Below are positions 8,021 through 33,400 of a DNA stretch of 34,282 bases, one piece after another. Position numbers and translations under genes: made by a program. The DNA is from Candidatus Woesearchaeota archaeon. Its GTDB lineage: Archaea > Nanobdellota > Nanobdellia > Woesearchaeales > ARS49. Each line of letters begins with the position of its first letter. The first letter of the stretch is position 1. The stretch is taken from assembly GCA_003599055.1 (NCBI GenBank), contig QZIM01000017.1, positions 1-34,282 of the forward strand, given 5' to 3'. A model generated the notes under the pieces. The model saw nothing but the letters and a program-made list of their open reading frames with translations, was not told the DNA's origin and did no database searches.

Positions 8021-8149
8021 ATGCAGATGCTCGTATGCACCAAACCAAAACAGTCGCCAAAGGCAAAAAAAGAGGAGTTTCCTTCACTTCTTGAGCAGGC
8101 AAAGGCGTCTCTTGAGGATTTAAGGGCTGGCAGAGTTCGGGAAGTTTAG
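8021..8149 (+). CDS. small antitoxin (convergent TA cassette A)
   Basis: This 42-residue protein starts MQMLVCTKPKQSPKAKKEE and ends in the helix SLEDLRAGRVREV. It is homologous by eye to the 43-residue gene at 17717 (start MQRLVS, end TLEDLKAGRVREV), and more distantly to the one at 17179 (DDIKNGRF). The conserved C-terminal helix would suit binding of a RelE-like toxin. It is leaderless by promoter position, and the start is chosen by alignment with the 17717 copy. The last 4 bp overlap the 3' end of the toxin gene on the other strand. The antitoxin role is inferred from the three-fold recurrence with RelE-like genes. Confidence 0.65.
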   Translation: MQMLVCTKPKQSPKAKKEEFPSLLEQAKASLEDLRAGRVREV

Positions 8150-8448
8150 AGTTTTTCTGCAAGTTTTTTGAACGCTTGAAGGTGCTCTTTGATGAATGCA
8201 ATTATCTCTTTTTGGTCGCGTTTATTGCCCAGTGCGATGAAGATGATTTTTTTCAAGTCGGGATAGGTGAGAAAGTGCAATCTGAGCCCGCTGAACTTCT
8301 TTTCCCGAAGAAAGTGATTGCCAAGTGGTTTGCCGATGTGCGGGTCAGTTCGCAGGCGCAGTTCGAATCGCTCGATGAGCGGGTGATAGTGGCCGTCAAT
8401 TTTTGCGTATTGTTTTGCAAATCGGGCGCCGTGAAAGATGCGGTACAT
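8146..8448 (-). CDS. RelE/ParE-superfamily toxin (cassette A)
   Basis: This 100-residue protein starts MYRIFHGARFAKQYAKIDGH. The RelE/ParE fold pattern is visible: N-terminal helices, then the strand block with HFLREKKFSGLRLHFLTY and IIFIALGNKRDQKE. RelE proteins cleave mRNA on the ribosome, while ParE proteins poison gyrase. I cannot tell which applies. The start ATG 8448 lies 26 bp from a TATA box (TTAATAT rising from 8471), so the upstream in-frame ATG at 8487 is rejected. The gene is transcribed toward its presumed antitoxin and overlaps it by 4 bp, unlike the usual codirectional type II operon. Confidence 0.7.
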   Translation of the reverse strand: MYRIFHGARFAKQYAKIDGHYHPLIERFELRLRTDPHIGKPLGNHFLREKKFSGLRLHFLTYPDLKKIIFIALGNKRDQKEIIAFIKEHLQAFKKLAEKL

Positions 8449-8465
8449 TGTCCGCACAAGATGTG

Positions 8466-8511
8466 TTCGCTTAATATGCCTTCGCATGAAAAAGCGGGAA
8501 GGTTTTCAGAA
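8466..8511 (-). promoter_or_regulatory. conserved toxin promoter element (copy A)
   Basis: Read on the minus strand: TGAAAACCTTCCCGCTTTTT, a short variable spacer, then GCGAAGGCATATTAAGCG. The last part contains the TATA box of toxin A. Near-identical blocks occur at 17627-17669, 18166-18208 and 9288-9331. Conservation well beyond a TATA box suggests a regulator-binding site or a recently duplicated cassette. Confidence 0.65.
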
Positions 8512-8546
8512 ACGACGTGCAGATTGATGCGGGTGTGTTTTTTGCT

Positions 8547-10319: not shown

Positions 10320-10691
10320 CTAAAACATCCCTTTCTCGTTCTTTATGTCTTTTGGGACTTCCTGTGCAACATCCCACAGTTCAGCTATTTTGCCGTCAAG
10401 GAAGCGGAATAGGTGGACTATTGCATAGCCGCTCTCTTCCTTGTTGTGTTTGACGTGGAGGTGGATTGCGACTAAATCTTCATCTTCGAGTGCGTTTTTG
10501 ATATCAATTGTGATGTTCGGATTCTTCGTGTGCGCATCTATCATTGCGTTCATAAGAGACTCTGCGTCGCTTTTGAACTGCGCGTTGTGGTGGACAAAAT
10601 TCTTGCCGATATGTTTTGCGTATGCTTCTTTAATCTTGTGCGCAACTATCATTTGCAGGAATTCGACTGCGTGGTCTTTGTTGGTTGTCAT
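10320..10691 (-). CDS. SnoaL-like (NTF2-fold) protein
   Basis: This 123-residue protein has the SnoaL/NTF2-like pattern: a helical start (HAVEFLQMIVAHKIKEAYAK), FVHHNAQFKSDAESLMNAM, and the strand region VAIHLHVKHNKEESGYAIVH followed by FRFLDGKIAELWD. Members are small enzymes or ligand binders with a conical pocket, and the substrate here cannot be predicted. It is the last gene of the seven-gene operon and overlaps the TfoX-like gene by 4 bp (ATGA). Confidence 0.75.
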   Translation of the reverse strand: MTTNKDHAVEFLQMIVAHKIKEAYAKHIGKNFVHHNAQFKSDAESLMNAMIDAHTKNPNITIDIKNALEDEDLVAIHLHVKHNKEESGYAIVHLFRFLDGKIAELWDVAQEVPKDIKNEKGMF

Positions 10692-11014
10692 TTTTTGAGT
10701 GTTTGGACGAATGTTTTTGCCATTTCAATCCAACTTTTGAGTTGTTTGTCTGTTTTGATTCCTGCGGGTGCTACGTAGATGAATCCTTTCATTGGCTTTC
10801 CGGTGAAGTCCATGGGGCGTGTGTGGGGCTTCTTGAGCGCAGGTTCATTATTCTCGGGCCCGACGCGTGCAAGCAATTCGTCTTTGGTGATGCCGACGAA
10901 CATTTTACCATGCAAAAGAAAAGCAATTCCGCCGAACATTTTTTTCTCATCAATGCCGCGCAGGGACTTCACGGCCTTGCGGATTCGTTCTGCGAGTTTT
11001 TCGTCGTATGCCAT
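10688..11014 (-). CDS. TfoX N-terminal-domain protein
   Basis: The 108 residues match the stand-alone TfoX-N family: RGIDEKKMFGGIAFLLHGKM, then VGITKDELLARVGPEN and the late MDFTGKPMKGFIYV. In gamma-proteobacteria TfoX/Sxy controls competence through an additional C-terminal domain that is absent here, so that role should not be assumed. Stand-alone TfoX-N proteins have no well-defined function. It sits within a tightly overlapping operon. Confidence 0.85.
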   Translation of the reverse strand: MAYDEKLAERIRKAVKSLRGIDEKKMFGGIAFLLHGKMFVGITKDELLARVGPENNEPALKKPHTRPMDFTGKPMKGFIYVAPAGIKTDKQLKSWIEMAKTFVQTLKK

Positions 11015-11376
11015 TAGTTAAGGTCAACAATCGCTTCAAACCCGCCGTATGCCATTCTTTTCATGTCGAAGGGCATGGGTTGGTTTTTGTCGTATTTCTT
11101 TTCCATCTCTTTCATCACGCGCTTGTTCACGGCGTCGCGGTGCTTTTTGTTTGTGTAGGTGATGAAGGAGAAGACGACAGTCTCTCCTTTCTTTGCTTTC
11201 GCCATTTTCTCGTATTTGAGCGTTGACCATTTGTTGTCAAGCTCGTTTCCGATGCATTCGACGTATTGGAGCGCGCCGTGTTTCATCCATATCTTGCCTG
11301 CTTCTTGTGCTGTTTTTTTGTATTTGCCGATGTTCTTTTTTGGCAGCGGCAAAACGTATCCGTCGATGTAGGTCAT
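11014..11376 (-). CDS. DUF1428 family protein
   Basis: This 120-residue protein has the DUF1428 hallmarks: MTYIDGYVLPLPKKNIGKYK, the WMKHGALQYVECIGNEL segment, ETVVFSFITYTNKKHRDAVN and the late PFDMKRMAYGGFEAIVDL. The family adopts a dimeric alpha/beta-barrel fold (ABM-like). No enzymatic role is established to my knowledge. It overlaps the gene before it by 4 bp and the one after it by 1 bp. Confidence 0.85.
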   Translation of the reverse strand: MTYIDGYVLPLPKKNIGKYKKTAQEAGKIWMKHGALQYVECIGNELDNKWSTLKYEKMAKAKKGETVVFSFITYTNKKHRDAVNKRVMKEMEKKYDKNQPMPFDMKRMAYGGFEAIVDLN

Positions 11377-11924
11377 GGTTGTGTTCCTCCCTGCAGGAGT
11401 TCTGCAAGTTTTTGTGTGGTGTTGTAATTGCGAAGGGTCATTCGTTGATAAATCTTTTTGGTGATGAGCTTGCTGATTTTGCTTTTCATAATCCCGCTTA
11501 GGGGTGTGGAGAGGTAGAGCGCGCCTGGCCCGATTGCAAGGGAGTCAACGCCTTCTTTGAGTTCGATTTCTTTTGCCGCGTCGCCAGCAGAAGGGGGTTC
11601 TTTGATGAACGCGACGTATTTGCGCAGGTCGTTTTTTCGCGCCCAGTTCGTCGGGGCTGACGCGATGAGGTTTTTCATTTGTTGTGCGGAGCGAACAAGC
11701 ACGGTTGACTGGTAGTTGAATGTTTTGGAGAGGAATTGTTCGATGTCTTTTTCGAGTTTAGCGGTGTTTTTTTCGGTTGAGGTGAAAATGACGTTGCCGC
11801 TTTGGATGTAGGTTTTGACGTTGGTGTAGCCGTTTTTTTCAAATGCTGCCTGAAGGTCGGCCATTTTGATAATGTTTTTGCCGCCGACGTTGATGCCGCG
11901 CAGCAGGGCAACGAAAGCGCTCAT
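11373..11924 (-). CDS. DUF1697 family protein
   Basis: The 183 residues start MSAFVALLRGINVGGKNIIK, the typical DUF1697 opening, followed by MADLQAAFEKNGYTNVKTYI and QSGNVIF. The length agrees with the family. The function is unknown. It is common in bacteria and scattered in archaea. ATGA overlaps on both sides indicate translational coupling. Confidence 0.88.
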   Translation of the reverse strand: MSAFVALLRGINVGGKNIIKMADLQAAFEKNGYTNVKTYIQSGNVIFTSTEKNTAKLEKDIEQFLSKTFNYQSTVLVRSAQQMKNLIASAPTNWARKNDLRKYVAFIKEPPSAGDAAKEIELKEGVDSLAIGPGALYLSTPLSGIMKSKISKLITKKIYQRMTLRNYNTTQKLAELLQGGTQP

Positions 11925-12352
11925 GGGGTGAGCCCGGGGTTTTTTGCCGCTTTTTTGATTACTTCTTTGAGCGCGGGTAAGTTGACGTCGGCGAGTTTTT
12001 TGAACCTGATGCAGCTTTTGCCGACGGAGACTTTGCCAAGCTGTTTTTTGTATTTTTCCGCAAGGTATTTGCCCTTTTCAAGCGCGCAGATGTAAATTGA
12101 GATGTGGTGTTTTTGGCTTGCGAGTGCGACAACGGGCCAGTCGATTGTTTCTTTCTTATAATTCACGTATCTGAATTTGCCGTAGCCGAGCATGTTGTAG
12201 GCGAAGTGCGCTTTGAGTTTGGGCGACTGTTTTTGAATGAGGGTGTGCAAAAAGAGGATGGTGTCTTTGCGCTCGGGCGGGAGTGCGTCGATATATTCTT
12301 TCACGTTTCTTGCTTTTGTGGGCTTGAACATGTTGGTCATCGTTGTCGTCAC
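11921..12352 (-). CDS. DUF1801 (YdhG-like) family protein
   Basis: This 143-residue protein has the DUF1801 pattern: VKEYIDALPPERKDTILFLH, LKAHFAYNMLGYGKFRYV and a late SVGKSCIRFKKLADVNLPAL. The family has an iron-chaperone-like (frataxin-like) fold in some members, and its function is not established. The start is chosen because ATG 12352 overlaps the upstream stop as ATGA. Confidence 0.85.
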   Translation of the reverse strand: MTTTMTNMFKPTKARNVKEYIDALPPERKDTILFLHTLIQKQSPKLKAHFAYNMLGYGKFRYVNYKKETIDWPVVALASQKHHISIYICALEKGKYLAEKYKKQLGKVSVGKSCIRFKKLADVNLPALKEVIKKAAKNPGLTP

Positions 12353-12780
12353 CTGGTTTTCGGTTCTGTTTTTTTGAGGATTATTTCTTCTTTGTCCTGT
12401 TTGAAGGTTATGTGGAACTGTTCGAAAAATCCGTTTCGCCCGGGCAGAAGAGGGGTGCTGTTGGTTGCGTCCTGCAGGACGAGCGCAGGTACGGTGAGCG
12501 GGTAGTGCTCGTGTTTGCCCTTGAGGGTGAAGGTGAGCCTCGTCTTTCGGACGTTTACTTTTCCGCCGATTCCGCCTGTTTCAAGTGTATCGGTCTGTTT
12601 GAGTCCCAGTACTTCTGCGAGGTCTTTGGGAATGACCGTGGTGTCTGCGCCGGAATCAATGAGGGCATTGACGATAATGGCGCGTCCGTGTGCGTCATGA
12701 ATATGGGCGGGTATGAATGGTGCCTTCCAAAGCGTTTTGTCAGGGCGGCTGACGCGAACGTATTTGAAGATGATTGCCAT
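12349..12780 (-). CDS. retropepsin-like aspartic protease
   Basis: This 143-residue protein has the retroviral-type aspartic protease signature NALIDSGADTTVIPKDLA, with the catalytic Asp at D42 (D-S-G), and the second hallmark GRNGFFEQFHITFKQ. A single-domain protein of this type must dimerise to form the active site. It lies 3 bp downstream of a DUF5678 gene, a pairing I recall from other archaeal genomes. Substrates are unknown. Confidence 0.85.
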   Translation of the reverse strand: MAIIFKYVRVSRPDKTLWKAPFIPAHIHDAHGRAIIVNALIDSGADTTVIPKDLAEVLGLKQTDTLETGGIGGKVNVRKTRLTFTLKGKHEHYPLTVPALVLQDATNSTPLLPGRNGFFEQFHITFKQDKEEIILKKTEPKTR

Positions 12781-12783
12781 TGA

Positions 12784-12957
12784 TCAGAAGATGAGAATTT
12801 CCTCTTTTGGGACCTTGGTGAGTGTGGGGGTGGTTTTGCATTTGACCAGCGCATCGCGTATTTTGGTCAGGTCTTTATGGTGTGCGATAACGTGGTTGTT
12901 ACAACTGATTACCCATTCTCCGGGATATTTGCAAAAATCCAAGGGGCGGCTTTTCAT
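12784..12957 (-). CDS. small DUF5678-type protein
   Basis: The 57 residues start at ATG 12957. The line PGEWVISCNNHVIAHHKDL and the end VPKEEILIF match the small DUF5678 family that accompanies retropepsin-like genes. A TATA box 26 bp upstream makes this the first, leaderless gene of a seven-gene minus-strand operon running to 10320. The stop is 3 bp before the protease start. Confidence 0.75.
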   Translation of the reverse strand: MKSRPLDFCKYPGEWVISCNNHVIAHHKDLTKIRDALVKCKTTPTLTKVPKEEILIF

Positions 12958-12978
12958 AGGGTATTTGTTGTTTGCTCA

Positions 12979-12987
12979 ATTTAAAAA
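12979..12987 (-). promoter_or_regulatory. promoter of the DUF5678-retropepsin operon
   Basis: The minus strand reads TTTTTAAAT, centred 26 bp before ATG 12957. It is the only convincing promoter for the whole 10320-12957 operon. Confidence 0.65.
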
Positions 12988-13061
12988 GGTTTGTGCAAAA
13001 AAGTGAGAATGATTCCGGGCGAAGTGGCTGGTTTTTCCGCCGTTCGTTGTGGTTTCCTTCT

Positions 13062-13925
13062 TTATGCGTCCTCAAGTCTTTTAATGTCGAGCTTTTTCAT
13101 CGTCATCATTGCTTTCCACGCTTCTGGTTTTGTCAGGAGTTCTTCGATGTTTTCAGGGTCGATTTGCCACACGATTCCGAATTTGTCGGCGAGCCAGCCG
13201 CAGGGCATTTCTTGTCCGCCAATGCTGAGCGCGTTCCAGTAGTGGTCGATTTCTTGTTGGTTTTTGCACCTGACGATAAATGATATCGCGCCGGTGAAGT
13301 CGAATTGGTGTTCTCCGGGGCCGTCCATAAGGACGAATTCGTACCCGTCAAGCCGGATGCGGGCGTGTTTGACGCAGTCTTCCAGTCCGGGAGTCTCTTC
13401 GTACATGCTGCCAAGGAGCACGATTGAGTTGGGGAAAATTTCGGTGTAGCGGCTGATTGCGGCTGCGGCTTTGCCGAACCTTTTTCCGACGAAAAGGAAG
13501 CAGGGCGTGATTTTTTGCGCGGCTTCTCCAAGGATGATTTGCCAGTCTATTCCAAATTTGTCCGAGCACCAGCCGTAGCTGTCGCTCCAGGGGTATTTGT
13601 CAAGGGCCATGCGCACTTCGCCGCCGTCTGAGAGTTTTTCCCAAAGCGTTTTTACTTCGTCTGCTGTTTTGCACGTGACGAAAAAGGAGATTGCGGGGCT
13701 GAATTTGGCGAACTGTTCGCCGCCGTTTATTGCGGTGAATTGTTGTCCCTCGAGTTCAAATGCGACGGTCATAATGCTTCCTTCAGGTTGTCCGCTCGCT
13801 AAGGCGGGTTCTTTTGTGTAGTGCGTGGTTTTGGTGATTTTTGAATTTGCAAAAATAGAAGTATAGTATTCGACTGCTTTTTCTGCGTCTTTTGCGAACC
13901 AGAGGAAGGGGGTGATTTTTTGCAT
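13062..13925 (-). CDS. tandem VOC (PhnB-like) protein
   Basis: The 287 residues contain two PhnB/3-demethylubiquinone-methyltransferase-like VOC domains. The first (about 1-135) begins MQKITPFLWFAKDAEKAVEY and ends SDKFGIDWQIILG. The second (about 136-275) begins AAQKITPCFLFVGKRFGKAA and ends ADKFGIVWQIDPE. VOC domains make a metal-binding or ligand pocket, and PhnB-like members have no firmly assigned reaction. The duplication gives an internal dimer. It has its own TATA box (13947-13955) and is leaderless. The family is bacterial-looking, like its neighbours. Confidence 0.88.
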   Translation of the reverse strand: MQKITPFLWFAKDAEKAVEYYTSIFANSKITKTTHYTKEPALASGQPEGSIMTVAFELEGQQFTAINGGEQFAKFSPAISFFVTCKTADEVKTLWEKLSDGGEVRMALDKYPWSDSYGWCSDKFGIDWQIILGEAAQKITPCFLFVGKRFGKAAAAISRYTEIFPNSIVLLGSMYEETPGLEDCVKHARIRLDGYEFVLMDGPGEHQFDFTGAISFIVRCKNQQEIDHYWNALSIGGQEMPCGWLADKFGIVWQIDPENIEELLTKPEAWKAMMTMKKLDIKRLEDA

Positions 13926-13946
13926 ATTGCCTGACTTGTGCGGCGG

Positions 13947-13955
13947 TATTTAATT
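13947..13955 (-). promoter_or_regulatory. TATA box for the VOC gene
   Basis: The minus strand reads AATTAAATA, centred 26 bp before ATG 13925. Confidence 0.6.
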
Positions 13956-14036
13956 TTGACGTTCTTGGTGAGGGTCTGGATGTTCTGGCGCTGCTTGGGT
14001 GATTGAACGTACGCAGCGCAGTTCTGGCTGGCGCGT

Positions 14037-14573
14037 TTAGCGGTGCATATTCAGTCGTTTAAGGTAGTCGATGAAGGAATTATGTGCGGGGGGTGCATAT
14101 TTTTCTCTGGCAAGGGTCCAGAGTCTGTTCGTGATGTCAAGAAGGGATGCTTCTGCGAAGAGGAGGGGTAGTTTGAGTGGTCGCAAAATGGCAAGGTCGT
14201 GCTCGGTTTCAATTGTCATACAGGGGATGGTGATGTTGTGTGCTCGTGCCGCGTTCGTCCGGTGGTTTCCGTCAAGAGCAAGGTAATTTCCGGTTCCGCC
14301 CGGCCTGTCCAGTCTGATTTCTGGCGGGGCAGGGATGATAAGAATGGGAGGGACGTGGTACCATCCGTAATCAGGTTCGGGTCTCTCTTGATGTATTGCG
14401 AGGAGGTATGCGCAGAGGTCCATTAGGGGGTATTCTTGCGAGAAGAATCCGTAAGGGTATTCTGTGGAGTTTTGGCGGTCTTTTTCTTCTTGGGCGCGTG
14501 CTTCGAGGGAGCGCGTTGTTGCGCCGTGTTCGACGGGGATTATTTCGCGTGCGGGCAGGATGACTTTTTTCAT
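14037..14573 (-). CDS. ParB/sulfiredoxin-superfamily-like protein
   Basis: This 178-residue protein has a ParB-like core at about residues 75-125: PPILIIPAPPEIRLDRPG leading to the diagnostic LALDGNHRTNAARAHNI and PCMTIE. In this superfamily the DG-x-HR segment binds nucleotide (CTP or ATP) or acts as a nuclease. The absence of a DNA-binding HTH argues against chromosome segregation. The remaining parts are unrecognised. A weak A-rich TATA-like box lies at about 14600-14608. Confidence 0.7.
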   Translation of the reverse strand: MKKVILPAREIIPVEHGATTRSLEARAQEEKDRQNSTEYPYGFFSQEYPLMDLCAYLLAIHQERPEPDYGWYHVPPILIIPAPPEIRLDRPGGTGNYLALDGNHRTNAARAHNITIPCMTIETEHDLAILRPLKLPLLFAEASLLDITNRLWTLAREKYAPPAHNSFIDYLKRLNMHR

Positions 14574-14615
14574 GGTTGCAGGGGGTATGATGAGGGGGTG
14601 ATTTTTTCTGCCATA

Positions 14616-15107
14616 TTAATTGCCTTCGTTCTTGAGGAGCTCAACTAATTTGTCAAGCTGCGAGTTGTATCCGTCGATAACGCCCATTTTTTCGTGTTTC
14701 ATTTTGTCTTCAATGGTGGGGTGGCTGATGCGGATGGTGACTTTGGTTTTGCCGTTCTCGTCCTCAAAGAGCGTGGTGGTTATCATTCCGCTTGGAAGGT
14801 CCGCGCCGCCTGCGTCAAAGTCTTCGCCGAATTCGTCGGTTGAGACGATTTTTTCGCCTTCTTTGAGTTCAAGGATGGTGCCTTCGCTGGGGTATTCTTT
14901 GCCGTCGGGTCCAATCATAACATAGCGCAGCCTGCCTCCCTGTTTCAGGTCGTTTTTTTCAACGCGGGTGTTGAATCCTTGCGGGCCGAACCATTTTTCA
15001 ATGAGTGTTGTTTCGGTCCAGTATTTCCAGACGAGTGCGCGGGGCGCATCGAATGTGCGGGCGATGGTGATTTCTTTGTCGTTTTGCTGTTCTGTTGGCG
15101 TGCTCAT
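14616..15107 (-). CDS. SRPBCC/AHSA1-type (START-like) protein
   Basis: This 163-residue protein starts MSTPTEQQNDKEITIARTFD. The AHSA1 family pattern is clear: APRALVWKYWTETTLIEKWF, GPQGFNT, GGRLRYVMIGPDGKEY, and the C-terminal MKHEKMGVIDGYNSQLDKLV, giving the helix-grip fold with a deep hydrophobic cavity. The ligand is unknown. A longer frame to 15326 is rejected, because a shared TATA box at about 15133 fixes the start at 15107. Confidence 0.88.
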   Translation of the reverse strand: MSTPTEQQNDKEITIARTFDAPRALVWKYWTETTLIEKWFGPQGFNTRVEKNDLKQGGRLRYVMIGPDGKEYPSEGTILELKEGEKIVSTDEFGEDFDAGGADLPSGMITTTLFEDENGKTKVTIRISHPTIEDKMKHEKMGVIDGYNSQLDKLVELLKNEGN

Positions 15108-15126
15108 ATGCGTGGGCAGGGAGTAA

Positions 15127-15138
15127 TGTTTATATTGT
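15127..15138. promoter_or_regulatory. bidirectional TATA box for two divergent leaderless genes
   Basis: TGTTTATATTG, centred at about 15133, reads as a TATA box on both strands. It lies 26 bp from ATG 15107 (minus, SRPBCC) and 26 bp from ATG 15159 (plus, phosphatase-like). No second TATA box is visible in the 51-bp spacer. Confidence 0.65.
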
Positions 15139-15158
15139 TTGCTGCCTCTCTGTTGGCT

Positions 15159-15485
15159 ATGAATGTGCTTTTCATTTGTAATCAAAACAAGCATCGCAGT
15201 AAGACTGCGGAGGATGTGTTTCGCTCCGTGTGCGTCGCGCGTTCTGCAGGTTTGTACAATGAGCATCCGGTGACGAAAGAGCAGATCGCGCAGGCGGACG
15301 TTGTTGTGGTTATGGAGGATGCGCAAAGGAGTGAGATAGCGAAGCGGTTTCCGTCGCTGTATCTTACGAAGCGGATTTTGTGCTGGAACATTCCTGATAT
15401 TTATCGTTTTGGTCAGCCTGAGCTGGTTGATGCGCTCAAGGAAAAGGCAGGTGATTTGCTAACTGAGCCAAGCGTGATATTGTGA
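15159..15485 (+). CDS. low-molecular-weight protein tyrosine phosphatase-like protein
   Basis: The 108 residues start MNVLFICNQNKHRSKTAEDV. The phosphatase P-loop CX5RS is present (C7 to R13-S14), followed by VARSAGLYNEHPVTKEQIA and ADVVVVMEDAQ, as in COG4551-type predicted phosphatases. The protein is shorter than classical LMW-PTP (about 150), and the usual C-terminal Asp general acid (DP motif) is replaced by NIPDIYRFGQPE. Likely a cysteine-dependent phosphatase, substrate unknown. The in-frame extension to 14979 lies over the divergent gene and is rejected. Confidence 0.85.
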   Translation: MNVLFICNQNKHRSKTAEDVFRSVCVARSAGLYNEHPVTKEQIAQADVVVVMEDAQRSEIAKRFPSLYLTKRILCWNIPDIYRFGQPELVDALKEKAGDLLTEPSVIL

Positions 15486-17716: not shown

Positions 17717-17848
17717 ATGCAACGGCTCGTCAGCGTTCAGAAGAAGGGGCAAAAGCAAAAGAAGGGCGTTCCTGTTGATGATGAACTTTTGCAGAGTCTT
17801 AAGCGGACTCTTGAGGATTTGAAGGCAGGGCGGGTCAGGGAAGTTTAG
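17717..17848 (+). CDS. small antitoxin (convergent TA cassette C)
   Basis: The 43 residues start MQRLVSVQKKGQKQKKGVPV and end TLEDLKAGRVREV, the closest relative of antitoxin A. It has a Lys/Gln-rich N-terminal half and one C-terminal helix. It is intact and leaderless, and overlaps the tail of the broken toxin C by 4 bp, exactly as in cassette A. Cassette C begins only about 15 bp beyond cassette B. Confidence 0.65.
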   Translation: MQRLVSVQKKGQKQKKGVPVDDELLQSLKRTLEDLKAGRVREV

Positions 17849-18145
17849 AGTCTGCGGGCGTATTCTTTGTATTGGGTGATGTGCGCTTTGATGAAGTCAA
17901 TGTCGTGCTGCTGAAATGTCTTGGTGCTTATTTTGGCGGGCAGGATTCGCGTAAGGTCGTCAAAGACGAAGGAGTAAATGCGGAGGTGGTGGTATTTCTT
18001 TTCGCGAAGGTACGCGTGATTGAGGGGTTTTTCAAGGCGGGGTTTTTTTGCAGTCGCTCTTCAAATATGGCAAGATTTTCTTGTCGCTTCCGTCTTGCCG
18101 GTGAACATCAGCATCGTATTCGGGGGCGTGAAAGATGCGGTACAT
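17845..18145 (-). pseudogene. frameshifted RelE/ParE-like toxin (cassette C)
   Basis: From ATG 18145 the frame starts MYRIFHAPEYDADVHRQDGS, as in toxin A, but stops after about 37 codons. Family sequence continues in a second frame (IFEERLQKNPALKNP) and then a third (NHAYLREKKYHHLRIYSFVF to HITQYKEYARRL, stop 17845). Two single-base deletions, one near 18060 and one in a C-run near 18025, would explain this. If real rather than assembly error, the toxin is dead while its antitoxin is intact. Confidence 0.65.
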
Positions 18146-18165
18146 TGTCCGCACAAGACGTGCGC

Positions 18166-18208
18166 GCTTAATATGCCTTCGGAGGAAAAAGCGGGATGGT
18201 TTTCAAAA
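18166..18208 (-). promoter_or_regulatory. conserved toxin promoter element (copy C)
   Basis: The minus strand reads TTGAAAACCATCCCGCTTTT and CCGAAGGCATATTAAGCG, nearly identical to copy A, and is retained although the toxin is broken. Confidence 0.65.
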
Positions 18209-18220
18209 ACAGCAAGTGTT

Positions 18221-25989: not shown

Positions 25990-26079
25990 ATGCTTTCCAA
26001 TCTGCGATGGTGCATGCGCTGTAACGATGAGTTATCAGTTTTGGATGATTGTTTGTGCTGTATTTGCTCTCTTGGTTAA
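25990..26079 (+). CDS. 29-residue putative zinc microprotein
   Basis: From ATG 25990 the frame reads [20 protein letters not shown], then CLCCICSLG and TAA. The WCxxCxxELxxLDDxCxxC layout looks like one compact zinc knuckle, similar to the small zinc-ribbon proteins common in DPANN genomes. A TATA box 26 bp upstream gives a leaderless start. The gene overlaps the 3' end of hsdR by 4 bp. Chance occurrence cannot be excluded for so short a frame. The rest of 25811-25960 holds only a repeated CTGGACATT (two copies) and no gene I can support. Confidence 0.45.
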
Positions 26080-29000
26080 TGGCCGTTTGCGGCTTCAGCG
26101 CAGAGAAGTTTTGCTTGTTCAAGGACAAGGTTGGCGGCCTCTTCTTCTTTATTTGGAGGGTAACCGTATTTTCTCAGAATTCTCTTGACCATGATTCGCA
26201 TTTCTGCTTGTACGTTTTCTCGTATGGTCCAGTCGATGGTAGCATTTTTGCGGACCTTTTCAACAAGTTCGCGTGCGATGTTTTTGAGTGTTTCATCACC
26301 GAGAACCTGAACTGCGCTGTCGTTCACTGAAAGAGCATCATAAAATGCAATTTCGTCTTCAGAAAGACCGAGTTTTTTGCCTTCTTTTGATGCTTCTCGC
26401 ATTTTTCTTGCAAGTTCAATAAGTTCTTCAATGACTTGTGCGGTTTCTATGCTCTTATTCGTATATGATTTGATTGCGCGATCAAGCATTTCTGCAAACG
26501 ATCGTGACTGTACGAGGTTGGTTCGTGCCTTAATTCTGATTTCGTTATGGAGTAGTTTTTTGAGCGCTTCGAACGCAAGATTTTTGTGCGGCATTCCTTT
26601 AACTTCTGCAAGGAAATCGTCTGATAAAACTGCGACATTTGGTTTCCTAAGTCCTGCTGCTGCAAAAATGTCAATGACGCGGTCTGAAACGACTGCTTTT
26701 GAGACGATTTGTTGGATTGCAGAGTCGATGTCTTCAGGTTTGGTTCCTGCAGTCTCGGTATTTTTTGCGATTCCTGCGCGCACTGCTTGGAAGAATCCTA
26801 CTTCATCTTGAATTTTAAGAGCGTCTTCATGTGGTACGGAAAGTGCAAACGCTTTACTCAGTTCAGTGACGCTTTTGAGGTATCTTTCCTTTCCGTTGGT
26901 CTGTTTGAGGATGAAATCCATTGCTTGGAAGATAAATGAGGTTCTTTTTGTTGGCTTAAGAGTGAAGAACGTTTTGTAATTGAATCCATGGAAAAGTGAT
27001 TGGATGATCTCATATTTTTCGTGAAGAAGAGCGACTGCTTCATCTTGGGGGATGCCTGTTTGTCTTTTGTCTCCTTCGGTGTACTCTGCGAGGGCTTTCT
27101 TGAGTTCGTATGCGATTCCGATGTAGTCTACGATGAGTCCTCCGGGTTTGTCTTTGAAAACTCTGTTGACTCGTGCGATTGCCTGCATGAGCCCGTGTCC
27201 GCGCATTGGTTTGTCAAGGTACATGGTGTGAAGACTTGGCGCGTCAAATCCGGTAAGCCACATGTCGCGCACAATGACGAGTTTCAGGGGGTCTGAGGGG
27301 TCTTTCATGCGATCTGCGAGGGTTTTCCTTCGGGGTTTGTTTCTGATGTGTTCTTGCCATGCAAGTTCATCTGATGCGGATCCGGTCATGACGACTTTTA
27401 CAAATCCTTTTTTGTCATCGTTGTCGTACCAGTCGGGTCTGAGTTTGACGATTTCATTATGGAGTTCGACGCAGATGCGTCTGCTCATGCAGACAATCAT
27501 TCCTTTTCCTTCGAGGATTGAGAGTCTTGTTTCAAAGTGTTTGACGATATCTTTTGCGATTCTTTTGATGCGGTTTTTGGAACCAACGACTGCTTCGAGT
27601 CGTGCCCATTTGCTTTTGAGTTTTTCTTTGCTTGCTGATTCTTCCCCTTCGGTGACTTCTTCAAAAAGGGGGTCGATTCGAGGAACTTCTTCTGGTTTCA
27701 GTTCAAGTTTCACGAGTCTTCCTTCGTAGTAAATTCTGACAGTGGTGCCGTCTTCTACTGCTTGTTCGATGTCATAGACGTCAACATATTTGCCAAATAC
27801 TGCGGGCGTGCTTTTGTCTGCTTTTTCTATTGGTGTGCCGGTGAATCCTATGAACGAAGCGTTTGGGAGTGCGTCGCGCAGGTGTTTTGCGAATCCGTCG
27901 ATGAAATCGTACTGGCTGCGGTGGGCTTCATCGGCAACGACGATGATGTTTCGTCTATTTGAGAGAAGAGGGTATTTTTCTCCTTTTATCTCGGGTATGA
28001 ATTTTTGGATGGTTGTGAATACGACGCCTCCTGATGCGACTTTGAGCAGTTCTTTGACTTCTTCTCGTGATTCTGCTTGCTTGGGTTTTTGTCTGAGGAT
28101 GTCGTGGCAACTGCTGAATGTTTCAAAGAGTTGGTCGTCGAGGTCGTTTCGGTCGGTGAGTATGATGATGGTGGGGTTTTCTAGTGCGTCTTCAACTGCG
28201 AGTTTGGCGGTGTAGAAGACCATGACGAGGCTCTTGCCGGATCCTTGGGTGTGCCAAACGATGCCGGCTCGTTTATCGGCTTTTGTCGCTTTAATAGTGG
28301 ATTCAATTGCCTTGTTGACTGCTTGGTATTGATGATATGCTGCCAGTTTCTTTACAATTTTGACGGTGTTTGTTTTCTTGTCTTTTTCGGCTTCAAAGAC
28401 GATGAAGTTTCTCATAATGTCGAGGAACCGTTCAGGGTGGAACATGCCTTGAATGAGAACATCGAGGGGGGTCATCGATTTTGGCGGGTTTTCTCCGTTT
28501 ATTTTCTTCCAGGGAATGAATCGTTCTTTGTTTGAACTGATGGTGCCTGCTCGTGCTTCGAGTCCATCGCTGAGTACGAGGATTTCATTAAATCTGAAGA
28601 GTGAGGGGATTTGTTCTTTGTACGTTTCTATTTGGTTAAATGCGCTCCAGATGGTCGCGTTTTCGTCTGCCGGGTTTTTGAGTTCGATGACTGCTAAGGG
28701 GAGACCGTTGATGAAGAGGATGATGTCTGGTCGTCTGGTGTTTCTCTCTTCAACAATCGTGAACTGGTTTATGGCGGCAAATTCGTTGTTTTTTGGATTG
28801 GAGAAATCGATGAGGTGGACTGTGTCGTGTTTGATGTCGGTCCTTTTTTTGTACTCGACGGGGACTCCTTCTCTTAAAAGTTTATGGAATGAGTGATTGT
28901 TGGCGATGAGATTCTGGCTGTCGGTTCTCAAAATTTTCTTGATTGCGTCATGTACGGCATCTTTTGGGACGGCGGGGTTGATTTTTTCCAATGCTGAGCG

Positions 29001-29153
29001 CAATCGATCCACTAAAACAATATCATGGAGCGTTTTTCTCTCAGGAGATGGTCCGTCAGGGAGGATGTCTGGGCCGTGGATGATTTTGTAGCCTATGTCA
29101 CGTAACAAGTCAAGCGTGTTATTTTCGAGGTCGGCTTCAGTAAGGCGGATCAT
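26076..29153 (-). CDS. hsdR: type I restriction enzyme R subunit
   Basis: The 1025 residues form the motor and nuclease subunit. The N-terminal PD-(D/E)XK nuclease has D143 in [21 protein letters not shown]158, K160 and the QxxxY motif (Q174-IET-Y178). The SF2 translocase has Walker A TQGSGKS (302-308), DEAH (408-411), GFTGTPI and [11 protein letters not shown] helical C-terminal region binds the methylase core. It translocates DNA and cuts at a distance when unmodified HsdS targets are present. It is expressed from its own TATA box, 55 bp after the caspase-like gene, and is separated from hsdS by about 3 kb of accessory genes. Confidence 0.95.
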
Positions 29154-29178
29154 ATGCGCTCTTGTATGACTGGAGTGT

Positions 29179-29188
29179 ATTTAAATAT
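29179..29188 (-). promoter_or_regulatory. hsdR promoter
   Basis: The palindromic TATTTAAATA is centred about 28-30 bp before ATG 29153. Confidence 0.55.
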
Positions 29189-29208
29189 CTTTGATTTTTT
29201 CGGTTTTG

Positions 29209-29862
29209 CTAAAATGCGGCTTTGCCATCTCCGACGTGGTTGAGGCAGTCTAAGTTCCATGTCAATGCAAAGCCGATGAGTGGTGCATCGCCGTAAGGGT
29301 CATCTTCACTTGTGCCATATGCTTTTATTGATTTGATGTATTCTTTTCTGGTGAGTTGCACTGCCTTTTCGACTCTGGTTCCTTCAATTAATGCTTCTAT
29401 TAGCGTGTTGCAGGCTCTTCTAAATGGCTCGGCGTTCATATCGATGTCAGGAGAACTGGTTCTTGATTCATCTTTAACGCACATGAATGCTGCCCCGTAG
29501 CCGATGTATGCTTTTGCGCCATTCCTGATGGATTTTTCTCCCAGTTCGATTAAAGAATCGCAAGCGAGGGCGTAGATGATTTTATCTTTTGTTAATTTGA
29601 CGTTGTCAAAGTCAAGGAGGGGTTGATCGTTGTGTCCCCAGACGCTTTGCGTGTTTCCATGGCCGTTAAGAAAAACAAGTGCTGCTTGCGTTTTGAGCAG
29701 AGCTTTTTCAAATTCTGAGCGATTTGCTTTGGTGCCTTCAAGATTCGAAGTGTGAATGTCTTTGTTTCCTTTGAGTTTCTTAATGATTGGCTTTGAAAAA
29801 CTGTGCAAGTAGGATGTTTCCACGTCATGGTTTGGTCTGGTGATGATGAGGTTTTTTGTCAT
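29209..29862 (-). CDS. caspase-like (CHAT/C14-type) cysteine protease
   Basis: The protein has 217 residues. The clan CD catalytic dyad is visible: H68 in AALVFLNGHGN and C101 in IIYALACDSLIELGEKS. These are followed by the typical GAKAYIGYGAAF strand and a specificity region with acidic residues (SSPDIDMNAEPF, TSEDDPYGDAP). Stand-alone caspase-fold proteases of this kind act as effectors in several prokaryotic immune systems. Two very small genes directly upstream (stop-to-start gap 1 nt, then ATGA) are likely partners. It sits between hsdS-side genes and hsdR. Substrate and activation are unknown. The lack of a fused sensor suggests that the small proteins or the type I complex provide control. 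Confidence 0.75.
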   Translation of the reverse strand: MTKNLIITRPNHDVETSYLHSFSKPIIKKLKGNKDIHTSNLEGTKANRSEFEKALLKTQAALVFLNGHGNTQSVWGHNDQPLLDFDNVKLTKDKIIYALACDSLIELGEKSIRNGAKAYIGYGAAFMCVKDESRTSSPDIDMNAEPFRRACNTLIEALIEGTRVEKAVQLTRKEYIKSIKAYGTSEDDPYGDAPLIGFALTWNLDCLNHVGDGKAAF

Positions 29863-29863
29863 G

Positions 29864-30067
29864 CTATTCGGTGAGAATTTTCAGCATTTTCATCTGAACG
29901 GAGACGATTCTTTTACCGAGTTCATCGTTGTTTTCGACATGTTTGATGAGTTCTCCAACGCTTAATTCTTTGCCACCGCCAAGCATGAGTTTTGATTTTG
30001 AGTTTAAGGTTTTGAATCTTGCAAGAACGAGTTCTCTTTGTGCGTCTGCAATGTCTTGTGGGTTCAT
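29864..30067 (-). CDS. 67-residue helical partner of the caspase-like protein
   Basis: The sequence starts MNPQDIADAQRELVLARFKT and ends IVSVQMKMLKILTE. It is almost entirely helical with a GGGKELSVGELIKHVENND turn, and looks like a small adaptor. Its TAG lies 1 nt before the caspase-like ATG, and its ATG overlaps the upstream stop (ATGA). No family name is recalled. The conserved-looking composition and coupling support a real gene. Confidence 0.7.
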   Translation of the reverse strand: MNPQDIADAQRELVLARFKTLNSKSKLMLGGGKELSVGELIKHVENNDELGKRIVSVQMKMLKILTE

Positions 30068-30243
30068 AATATTCCTAAATCGTGCATTTTTTTAAGGATT
30101 TTCTTGCCTAACGGGGTGTCGTTGCTGATCTCGCTGTATGCAACGTCCCACGAGTACGGTTTTCCATCTATAATTGCAATAATCTGCCTTCTTTCCGGCT
30201 CTGGAAGCCGGGCGTAGGCGCCCAAAAACTTTTCTTTTGTCAT
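30064..30243 (-). CDS. 59-residue first gene of the caspase-like module
   Basis: It starts MTKEKFLGAYARLPEPERRQ and contains IIAIIDGKPYSWDVAYSEIS and a basic C-terminal helix (GKKILKKMHDLGIL). It appears soluble and has no recognised family. Coupled by ATGA to the 67-residue gene, it heads a three-gene unit whose promoter is bracketed by a 10-bp inverted repeat, so it could be the regulator or sensor of the module. That is inference. Confidence 0.65.
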   Translation of the reverse strand: MTKEKFLGAYARLPEPERRQIIAIIDGKPYSWDVAYSEISNDTPLGKKILKKMHDLGIL

Positions 30244-30258
30244 TCTTAAAATTCTTGA

Positions 30259-30293
30259 AAAAATAGGGGTAATTAAAGGTTCACCCTATTTTT
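30259..30293. promoter_or_regulatory. inverted repeat bracketing the promoter of the caspase-like module
   Basis: AAAAATAGGG (30259-30268) and CCCTATTTTT (30284-30293) are perfect inverted arms, 15 bp apart, on both sides of a TATA-like TTTAATTA (minus strand, about 30270-30277) that lies about 30 bp before ATG 30243. The layout fits an operator. Confidence 0.55.
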
Positions 30294-30369
30294 GCCTTTC
30301 TAGTATAGTTATTTGTATACTGGTAACTGGTATATATTCCTTTTGCTCTTGGAGAATTCGTTGTAAGTT

Positions 30370-30399
30370 GGGAGTAATTGGGAGTGATTAGAAGTAATC
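30370..30399. repeat. three 10-bp direct repeats
   Basis: GGGAGTAATT, GGGAGTGATT and AGAAGTAATC follow one another without gaps in the 190-bp spacer between the membrane-protein gene and the caspase module. They may be iterated binding sites. No gene is seen in 30244-30434. Confidence 0.5.
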
Positions 30400-30434
30400 C
30401 CCTTGCGCAACAACTTTTCTCAAGGTATAACGGC

Positions 30435-30716
30435 TCACTTATCATCTTTGTGTTGTACTGATTTAACTCGGAAGATGCTTTCTATGGCGTCCTTATGAAT
30501 GACAAGGAAGAAGAACGCACCTATTACTATGTATGTAGCGAGGCGAATACTTTCCTGATCATAAACTCCTCTTTGTTGAAGCAAATGATAGTAATACATG
30601 AGTAGATGAATTGAACCAAAGATGAGCAAGAGCCAAAGAAAACCGCAGAGAATGACGTGTAACCATGATCTGCAGATTTCCCACTTCGTTGGCTTATTTG
30701 GGACTCTTTTCCTCAT
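30435..30716 (-). CDS. small two-helix membrane protein
   Basis: The 93 residues contain two hydrophobic segments: about 18-44 (VILCGFLWLLLIFGSIHLLM) and about 59-75 (LATYIVIGAFFFLVIHK). Both termini are basic and probably cytoplasmic. No family is recognised. It is coupled to the zinc-ribbon gene upstream by an ATGA overlap and ends the nuclease-membrane unit. In a restriction locus such a protein may anchor a nuclease or act at the membrane, which is inference. Confidence 0.7.
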   Translation of the reverse strand: MRKRVPNKPTKWEICRSWLHVILCGFLWLLLIFGSIHLLMYYYHLLQQRGVYDQESIRLATYIVIGAFFFLVIHKDAIESIFRVKSVQHKDDK

Positions 30717-30883
30717 TTAAACTCCTCCCAATTAAGCCCTTGTCCGCAGTTTGGACACTCAGTATAACTATTTGTAACGGGATAATTACATCGGGGGCAT
30801 TTGCCATGTTTTCTGCTTAAGAGCCAACCAAGTAACGCCAAAGCTCCAACCCATTTTAGTAATTCTCTGTCTTGTTTGTTCAT
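30713..30883 (-). CDS. 56-residue membrane zinc-ribbon protein
   Basis: It starts MNKQDRELLKWVGALALLGW, a short membrane helix (about 9-22), followed by a zinc ribbon with CPRC and CPNCG pairs (HGKCPRCNYPVTNS, then YTECPNCGQGL). ATGA overlaps link it to the nuclease gene upstream and to the two-helix gene downstream. Function unknown. Confidence 0.7.
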   Translation of the reverse strand: MNKQDRELLKWVGALALLGWLLSRKHGKCPRCNYPVTNSYTECPNCGQGLNWEEFK

Positions 30884-32097
30884 TTATTCACCGAAGGCAC
30901 GTCAAATGCAACGACAGTCAAGTGAATTAATTTCTCTTTGTCATCATTTTGATGTAGTTTGAATCTGAATGTAGTTTCATCGTGTTCCAATTCTTCTTTG
31001 AAGTTTGGATGGCTCTGCACGATGGCGGGGATCTGTTTCAGAACTTCGCTGAAATTCTTATTTCTGTTAAATAGGATGATGGCGGTTTTGGTATCTCTCC
31101 AAGAGGTGTACTTGAGCAATTGTTCAATGGTTTCAGTAAATCTCTTTTCTCCAGACCAAAATTTGCATTCAGCGATAAAAATATTTTTGTCGTTAATCCT
31201 CACGATGATGTCAGTCTTACCTCCGAAGTTGAAAGTTTCTCCCGTTGCTTGACCTTCGTATTGTCCATTTAACTGAACGAGAAAGTGAACTCGAAGGTCT
31301 TCTTCTTGAATTTGTTCAAATGCGCGGGGGCTGCGTTCCATGACATGGGCCATGCTGGTCACTATTGTTAAAATGTGCTCGTAATGTTCTTCTTCAAGTA
31401 CTAGTTCAGGAGATCCTTCCTTCAGTTGGACTGTGGGCAGTTTTTTCCTTATTAGTGGAGCAGTATACGTCTTTGGAGCATCTTTTCTTTTTTTAAGAGG
31501 AAATCCAACGGTTAAAGTAAGTTTTTCGTCATCTTTACACTTGCTCCAGCGGCTGTTTACCCAAATATCAATTTTTCTGGGAATTGATTTATAATGCGTG
31601 ATGAGTTCTGCACGCAGTCGATCCAATTCTATTTTAACATCTGCTATATTCTTATTAAATTCTTTTCTAAACTCATCTGATCGATGGGGAAGTTCATCAA
31701 CATTTACGACTAATTCCGAGTCCTGCACCACTCCTTTAGGTAGCCTGAGGTTGCGTGTTGACGGAGTATATTGAAAAAAGGATGCGTTTCCTTCAAATGG
31801 CACGTGGAATGTCATTCTTGTTCCGTTCTGGAGTGCTGGTTTGTGGTCTGGCCAAAACGCACTTTGCGGAGAGTCTGTTTGAATTTGGACTTCGCTTTGT
31901 GTTACCTCAATAGTCTCCATTAATTCTGGAATAAAATCTTCATAGTTCTCAAAGAGTGACTTCTTCAATTCAGCAAGATCGACATGCAAAATGTAGTCAG
32001 ATGTAAATTCGTCTATTTGTTGCTTCAGTTGTCTCTCTTTTCTTGAAAGATATGCGGACAACTCTTCTGTTGAGAAAAGAAGAGGATCGTTAATCAT
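30880..32097 (-). CDS. PD-(D/E)XK nuclease-like protein of the restriction locus
   Basis: The protein has 405 residues. The C-terminal third carries a PD-(D/E)XK core: D296 in FGGKTDIIVR, E310-x-K312 in NIFIAECKFWSGEKRF and Q326-x3-Y330 in IEQLLKYTSW, with acidic E265-E267 on the preceding helix. The N-terminal 200 residues are helical or beta and unrecognised, perhaps for target recognition. It overlaps the end of hsdS by 8 bp, so it is cotranscribed with hsdM-hsdS. It may be a second effector nuclease or a repair accessory. Confidence 0.75.
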   Translation of the reverse strand: MINDPLLFSTEELSAYLSRKERQLKQQIDEFTSDYILHVDLAELKKSLFENYEDFIPELMETIEVTQSEVQIQTDSPQSAFWPDHKPALQNGTRMTFHVPFEGNASFFQYTPSTRNLRLPKGVVQDSELVVNVDELPHRSDEFRKEFNKNIADVKIELDRLRAELITHYKSIPRKIDIWVNSRWSKCKDDEKLTLTVGFPLKKRKDAPKTYTAPLIRKKLPTVQLKEGSPELVLEEEHYEHILTIVTSMAHVMERSPRAFEQIQEEDLRVHFLVQLNGQYEGQATGETFNFGGKTDIIVRINDKNIFIAECKFWSGEKRFTETIEQLLKYTSWRDTKTAIILFNRNKNFSEVLKQIPAIVQSHPNFKEELEHDETTFRFKLHQNDDKEKLIHLTVVAFDVPSVNK

Positions 32098-33400
32098 GAA
32101 TGTGCACCCTAATTTGACCGGACATGAGTTTTGGGAGGAGAGAGTCGCGAAGCTGCTGAAGAACGACAGATTCGGATTCAGTTATGAGTTGTTTTCTGAA
32201 TCCGTTCATCATCAAGGTACCAAACTTATCAATGATTTCTTTATCAGGTACCAACGTTCGATATTCAGGGATGGCCCTTGCACTTAAATGAAGGACGGTG
32301 GTACCATTTGCATAGCCTATTGCATGACTCTGAAAGTCTTCCGATCTAAGCAGATAGTACAAGAAATCGTTGTTTAGTAATTTGATTGGTCTAACGACAA
32401 CAAGATCAAGTGATGCCACAAGCGTTTGATACTTCTGAACAGATTGAACTCTTGCAGGCTTTCCAAGTACCTCTGCATTTTGCGTTAAATCAGTCTGTGC
32501 TACGATTATGTCGCCATTCTTCAGTATTTGAGCGGGTTTGAACTTGCCAATATATTCTTTGAATCCTTCGGCTTGAAAACCACCTCCTCTCCCAACGGAC
32601 TTCAAAGTAACAAGCGCAGTTTTTGAATCCTTCAACTCAGAACTCTTATATGAAACTCCTTTGATTACTGATACAAAATCTGCCAGCTTCCCAACCTTCC
32701 ACCCCTCCGGCACTTCTTTCTTCAATTCTTCGTTATAAACCATTCTTCCCCCAGAACTCTTGTACGGCTTGCCTTGTTTGTTGGGGAATTCAAAGTCCAC
32801 GAACCAGTGTTTGAAGAGTGCTTGTCCGATGGCTTCAAGCGTTTTGTTCATTTGGTCATTGAGTTCGATTTTAGAGTCAAGGTCGGAGAGGACTTTGGCG
32901 ATGCGATGTTGTTCGGGGAGGGGCGGGATGTTTATGGCGACTTGGTCAAAGGTCTTTCTTGTTATGGTATTGAAGACTGAGCCATGGGTTTTTGATTGGA
33001 TATTGCCAATTAGGTTTTTGAGACAGTAGTATAGGAAATCATTATTGACTGTTTGACCACCATCCAAACCATAGCAAGACTGATTGAATGCCATGTCTTT
33101 TGTGACTTGTCCCAATTCACCGACAGTTCCTCGCGCAGAGATGATTAGTTGACCCTTATGTAGAAGTTTAGTTGGACTATTTTCTAGTCCTTCCTTTGAG
33201 ATATGTTTCTCAGTAGCAGTTATCCATCTTCTTCCCTTGCCAAAATCAGTTATTGATATCCAGGGGATTGTTCCGTTCCAGTACTCTGGAACACTCGTTT
33301 TCGGGGTTCCGCCGCTTATTATATCAACTACTTCAGAAAAGATAACAGTCTTCCAATTCGCTGAATTTCTTTCAGTTTTTTTGAGTCTGTTTTTGTTCAT
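32090..33400 (-). CDS. hsdS: type I restriction-modification specificity subunit
   Basis: The 436 residues contain two target-recognition domains, each followed by a conserved helix. TRD1 (about 15-165) includes IISGGTPKTSVPEYWNGTIP and ends at NIPPLPEQHRIAKVLSDLDS. TRD2 (about 230-385) ends with the second helical spacer (EIIDKFGTLMMNGFRKQL). HsdS selects the bipartite DNA site for both methylation and cleavage. It overlaps the upstream membrane-protein gene by 29 bp and the downstream nuclease gene by 8 bp. Confidence 0.95.
   Translation of the reverse strand: MNKNRLKKTERNSANWKTVIFSEVVDIISGGTPKTSVPEYWNGTIPWISITDFGKGRRWITATEKHISKEGLENSPTKLLHKGQLIISARGTVGELGQVTKDMAFNQSCYGLDGGQTVNNDFLYYCLKNLIGNIQSKTHGSVFNTITRKTFDQVAINIPPLPEQHRIAKVLSDLDSKIELNDQMNKTLEAIGQALFKHWFVDFEFPNKQGKPYKSSGGRMVYNEELKKEVPEGWKVGKLADFVSVIKGVSYKSSELKDSKTALVTLKSVGRGGGFQAEGFKEYIGKFKPAQILKNGDIIVAQTDLTQNAEVLGKPARVQSVQKYQTLVASLDLVVVRPIKLLNNDFLYYLLRSEDFQSHAIGYANGTTVLHLSARAIPEYRTLVPDKEIIDKFGTLMMNGFRKQLITESESVVLQQLRDSLLPKLMSGQIRVHIHD

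Follow-up and report, generated by a model that had tools for sequence, protein, structure and literature searches.

Introduction

Can one TATA box serve two divergent protein genes, both of them leaderless? The question is raised by a short spacer in a Candidatus Woesearchaeota archaeon (GenBank assembly GCA_003599055.1, contig QZIM01000017.1), in which an original prediction placed a single symmetric TBP site about 26 bp from each of two divergent ATGs, and saw in it an unusually clean natural case that would make the genes mutually exclusive or co-regulated. Here we examine this spacer within its window, by which we mean the whole stretch of 34,282 nucleotides that was analysed (contig C15 of a 1.15 Mb genome in 26 contigs), and among the relatives of the host genome.

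Warman et al., writing in Nat Microbiol in 2021, reportedly attributed divergent transcription from bacterial and archaeal promoters to symmetry in the DNA sequence. In the bacterial type, which rests on the -10 element, the starts are usually 18 bp apart (PMC10268837). A study of Pyrococcus furiosus (PMC6640164) describes antisense transcription that begins about 50 bp upstream of the primary start, with a shared TATA box and a BRE on both sides, and reports that in vitro both RNAs arose in similar amount at PF1918, where the starts are 49 bp apart; head-to-head genes, with a median intergene distance of 117 bp, could not be resolved. The direction of an archaeal promoter is set by the contact between TFB and the BRE (PMC7289017). 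In the literature consulted, archaeal shared-TATA transcription is mostly an antisense by-product, and a search of open-licence literature found no publication on shared-TATA divergent pairs in Woesearchaeota.

Results

Two start codons 51 bp apart

The genes on either side of the spacer, and the gene run to which one of them belongs, are as follows.

10320-15107, minus strand: accessory-gene run assigned by family matches (SnoaL, DUF1428, DUF1697, DUF1801, retropepsin-like aspartyl protease, PhnB/3-dmu-9_3-mt, AHSA1)
14616-15107, minus strand: AHSA1/SRPBCC-domain gene, 163 aa, predicted leaderless, A of the ATG at 15107
15159-15485, plus strand: short low-molecular-weight phosphotyrosine-phosphatase-like gene, 108 aa, MNVLFICNQNKHRS N-terminus, predicted leaderless, A of the ATG at 15159

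Pfam matches were obtained for the minus-strand product (AHSA1, PF08327, E=6.1e-25) and for the plus-strand product (LMWPc, PF01451, E=1.8e-6); an NCBIfam search of the two proteins found a family for neither. The minus start codon reads CAT at 15105-15107 and the plus ATG occupies 15159-15161, which leaves a spacer of 51 bp between start codons (15108-15158), as originally predicted, and 52 bp from one start-codon A to the other. The same two starts were picked de novo by a codon-model gene call. Alignments of AHSA1 relatives begin at query residues 5-17, and the closest phosphatase-like genes among named genomes belong to Candidatus Woesearchaeota and other DPANN bins. An earlier ATG for the phosphatase-like gene (15126-15128) was rejected because it would put the box within the gene, and because relatives start at the residue whose codon begins at 15159.

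Operon heads in this genome are mostly leaderless

The genome belongs among the Woesearchaeota-type (DPANN) archaea, in which gene starts are typically leaderless and have a TATA box 28-32 nt upstream of the ATG. Promoter geometry was drawn from 419,852 bases, comprising 20 stretches and the window, or 36% of the genome. In this sample, TTTAWA shows a sharp peak 28-32 nt upstream of operon-head start codons, and its matches among 263 operon heads number 66 at 27-32 nt, 11 at 37-42 nt and 4 at 17-22 nt. Among inner genes of operons (gap <20), 54 of 110 have an SD-like motif upstream, as against 35 of 152 divergent heads. Together the peak and the distribution of SD-like motifs indicate that most operon heads lack a leader and have their box some 28-30 nt upstream. 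The focal genes fit this geometry, with a box at 30 nt on the plus side and 27 nt on the minus side (some of the genome's boxes lie at 27 nt), and inspection by eye upstream of both focal ATGs found no SD motif.

One hexamer scores on both strands

The elements proposed within the spacer are these.

15129-15136, no strand assigned: TTTATATT, proposed shared TATA box, from sequence and matrix scores
15129-15134, both strands: common hexamer TTTATA/TATAAA, top match on each strand, offset 0
15123-15128, plus strand: BRE position of the plus promoter, GTAATG, matrix window GTAATGTTTATATTGT
15135-15140, minus strand: BRE position of the minus promoter, AAACAA as read on the minus strand, matrix window AAACAATATAAACATT

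TTTATATT is centred at 15132.5, at 25.5 and 26.5 bp from the start-codon As, close to the 26 bp originally given for either side. It is one TATA element, roughly halfway between divergent starts some 50 bp apart, these starts being start codons rather than mapped ends. In a matrix trained on the organism's own genome, with gap-45-60 pairs excluded, the hexamer scores 6.2 on the plus strand and 6.1 on the minus strand. An alternative, earlier matrix with different pseudocounts returned 3.5 and 6.4, respectively, so the plus score is matrix-dependent. Scores of at least 6.1 at 25-35 nt were reached by 1.1% of 6156 non-start plus-strand ATGs, compared with 46.7% of 255 operon-head starts, and each box by itself therefore lies well above chance; the plus and minus scores are nevertheless not independent, because TATA boxes in this genome are nearly palindromic. 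The symmetry that had been ascribed to the TBP site holds in part, in that TTTATA/TATAAA is near-symmetric without being a true palindrome. The flanks differ, the minus flank AAACAA being near the genome BRE consensus and the plus flank GTAATG being poor.

A scan of the 400 bp ahead of the AHSA1 ATG gives just four matches above 2: the shared box itself at 6.1, an overlapping match shifted by one base at 2.6, a TTCATA at d=56 (2.6) and a match at d=296 (6.3). The last, as good as the shared box, occupies 15398-15403 on the minus strand, inside the phosphatase-like gene, and would imply a leader some 270 nt long. The predicted sharing is supported on the minus side in that no better box lies near the AHSA1 start, and we infer that the AHSA1 gene would use the shared hexamer as the sole good box in its vicinity.

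The plus promoter and the gene pair in relatives

The phosphatase-like promoter is conserved across relatives. Phosphatase-like matches occur in 29 of 57 near genomes, with the ATG at the same residue in most; 28 of 39 relatives' genes carry TTTAWA 27-32 nt upstream of their start codon, and 31 of 36 scored promoters exceed 3 in the matrix of this genome (G000). Both totals omit partial matches (L029, L030) and same-contig loci (L036, L041, L042, L048, L050); the total of 36 also omits L027 and L028, and L024 was not scorable. In most orthologues the BRE is A-rich (AAAG, AAAC or AAAA before the box), and GTAATG of the window is weaker. This conservation, together with genome-wide box position, lends support to the prediction of leaderless genes with a shared TATA box.

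The minus side has a different distribution. AHSA1 is present in 3 of 57 near genomes, 17 of 287 genomes of the order and 2 of 26 of the family, the organism's own included each time, and the phosphatase motif was absent from all 18 AHSA1 loci checked. AHSA1 heads the minus-strand accessory-gene run, which may be acquired, since the gene is rare in relatives. Among loci searched by tblastn, the window's own was the only one to hold both focal genes, and with the pair in no other genome searched, the 51-bp spacing is not conserved and therefore stands without comparative support.

Two relatives have a phosphatase-like gene opposite another divergent neighbour, a radical SAM protein in one (gap 56; L009:323-1501) and a 485-aa protein with no Pfam match in the other (gap 57 bp; L043:1489-3001). 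Backward scores at these gaps are weak (0.8 and 1.8, respectively, in this genome's matrix).

Shared boxes elsewhere, and one-way controls

The locus proved less exceptional than the original prediction had supposed. Three other divergent pairs with one two-way box occur in the sampled 36% of the genome, with gaps of 52, 54 and 56 bp and two-way scores of 8.9/11.7, 10.8/12.3 and 4.1/8.3, respectively, so that two of them score higher than the focal pair. Across 16 genomes, 16 of 361 divergent pairs have gaps of 51-56, of which 12 score above 3 both ways at one site. One-way promoters provide a control, and 72 of 151 likewise exceed 3 when their own site is read backwards; for this genome the figure is 21 of 28. 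As about half of one-way boxes read well backwards, symmetry alone says little, and on these controls we rejected the notion that a both-strand match is special in itself. Where the plus score exceeds 3, however, the minus score does so in 12 of 13 pairs with gaps of 51-56, as compared with 72 of 151 in the one-way control (Fisher p=0.0025); shared boxes are two-way more often than ordinary boxes.

A bimodal rule for gaps (51-56 with one box, at least 72 with two boxes, and little between) was also considered; it seemed strong in the first set of pairs, failed in the second and proved weak in the third. In the first 200 pairs, from seven genomes, 11 gaps fall at 51-56, none at 39-50 and 9 at 57-71; in set 2 (60 pairs), none falls at 51-56 and 4 at 39-50; in set 3 (101 pairs), 5 fall at 51-56, 3 at 39-50 and 4 at 57-71. 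Pooled, 16 of 38 gaps of 39-71 lie within 51-56 (p=0.0005, the bin having been chosen on set 1), and the test sets give a binomial p of 0.22, such that the excess of 51-56 bp gaps is a hint only. As for the high-scoring 52-bp pair, which joins an MscS-type channel and a 131-aa protein, no other locus searched held both of its genes.

A pair with comparative support

The 54-bp pair of the same genome (L063:17318-18637, G000:C12) consists of an Asn-synthase-like gene (PF00733) and a DUF371 gene (PF04027). The two are divergent on the same locus at 11 of 27 DUF371 loci. Seven of these have a clear ATG on each side, with gaps of 54, 53, 52, 52, 53, 76 and 96 bp; this list omits four of the 11 head-to-head loci, where one or both starts are unclear. 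Gaps of 52-54 bp thus occur in five genomes of four genera, the other four DUF371 proteins being 44-60% identical to that of this genome. Boxes in these spacers (L189, L191-L194) score 8.9-13.5 both ways. When the five spacers are aligned on the box, the eight core columns read T, T/C, T, T, A, A, A, A, with a single C as the sole deviation, and a TTTAAA-type core lies 28-30 nt from both ATGs. Outside the core the spacer is variable, except for two T columns to its right. Unlike the focal pair, the Asn-synthase-like/DUF371 pair is comparative support for what its aligned spacers suggest to be a kept shared-TATA promoter. The two pairs are alike in that each comprises two apparently leaderless genes around one TATA box, with a gap of 52-54 bp in the one and 51 bp in the other; they differ in that the former spans four genera with a symmetric TTTAAA-type core, whereas the latter is confined to one genome with a score of about 6.

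In genus-mate G001 (L190, about 1424-1501), the Asn-synthase-like/DUF371 gap is 76 bp, GAGGAG stands upstream of the DUF371 ATG, and a box at the standard distance is present only on the Asn-synthase side. Perhaps this box now yields a leadered DUF371 mRNA, in a switch from leaderless to leadered in which the box itself was kept.

Discussion

We consider it likely that the spacer of this Woesearchaeota-type archaeon holds a bidirectional core promoter of the BRE-TATA-BRE kind, flanked by two leaderless protein genes. In the mechanism envisaged, TBP would bind near-symmetric TTTATATT, and TFB would dock on either flank, such that RNA polymerase would make either the RNA of the phosphatase-like gene, beginning rightward at the A of 15159, or that of the AHSA1 gene, beginning leftward at the A of 15107. 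One pre-initiation complex at a time would be expected from steric overlap. The plus promoter is old, and in the simplest history the AHSA1 run would have come to lie beside it and to use its near-symmetric box backwards.

Such an arrangement resembles the BRE-TATA-BRE promoters of P. furiosus (PMC6640164), in that the TATA box lies midway between opposite starts about 50 bp apart (49 bp there, and 52 bp from A to A here). There, a BRE stands on each flank and direction is chosen by TFB, whereas the focal pair has one good BRE flank and one poor. Moreover, the proven cases in P. furiosus couple a primary with an antisense start among head-to-tail genes, while the focal case couples two predicted leaderless mRNAs whose starts are read from sequence. 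Given these likenesses, the focal box is probably a further case of an already known two-way archaeal promoter, ordinary rather than exceptional.

The shared hexamer might instead be a one-way promoter for the phosphatase-like gene only, with AHSA1 transcribed from a start inside that gene or from a TATA-less start. On such an account the backward match would be the ordinary near-symmetry seen in almost half of the one-way controls; among relatives, 17 of the 31 phosphatase-like promoters with good scores also exceed 3 backwards, none with an AHSA1 partner, and the 6.3 match within the phosphatase-like gene offers the minus strand a box of its own. We nevertheless regard this explanation as unlikely, as the backward box lies at 27 nt from the AHSA1 start, is flanked on the correct side by an A-rich BRE and has a score that just 1.1% of non-start ATGs attain, and as the SD that a long leader would usually want is missing before that ATG. 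More improbable by far is that the spacer, being too short for two boxes, holds two distinct TATA elements offset by 1-3 bases that merely coincide. In its favour, the 8-mer is no palindrome, and a second minus-strand match (2.6) lies one base over, but the top match on both strands is the same hexamer with an offset of 0.

Least credible, in our estimation, is that the shared box is a regulatory switch, selected as a device to make the two genes mutually exclusive; the original prediction had named mutual exclusion or co-regulation as the outcome. Two complexes on one box would be expected to overlap, and in E. coli, whose bidirectional promoters are built on another element, strong activation one way can repress the other direction (PMC12825309). 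The same study reports, however, that none of the five bidirectional promoters it tested showed competition at basal activity, each being used too weakly for that, and the focal pair is both restricted to this genome among those searched and composed of genes whose functions nothing links.

A broader possibility, which we put forward tentatively and hold rather more doubtful than the promoter itself, is that a single near-symmetric TATA box midway between two leaderless genes is a selectively kept arrangement in this archaeal family, and that new genes can be captured by existing boxes used backwards, AHSA1 being a fresh capture of the old phosphatase promoter. The conserved Asn-synthase-like/DUF371 pair makes selection on a shared promoter testable, with the focal pair as a younger example. 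If both outputs are leaderless mRNAs, then the start codons mark both start sites, and such a genome would allow the choice of direction by TBP and TFB, competition between complexes, and gene capture to be studied from sequence.

Other features of the window

GC skew is strong, at about 0.2-0.3 in most 5-kb blocks of the whole window and of the sampled stretches (L052-L071). Plus-strand genes were missed by a single codon model, because this skew splits plus and minus codon use; the final gene call employed a two-class codon model in place of the single-model call. On the minus strand, translations within 26076-33400 include what we take to be type I restriction-modification subunits, one R subunit-like (26076-29153) and one S subunit-like (32090-33400). 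Lastly, imperfect direct repeats at 8102-8513 and 17801-18210 comprise segments of 89 nt (90%) and 51 nt (78%), which recur in the same order about 9.7 kb apart, as if a small locus had been duplicated.
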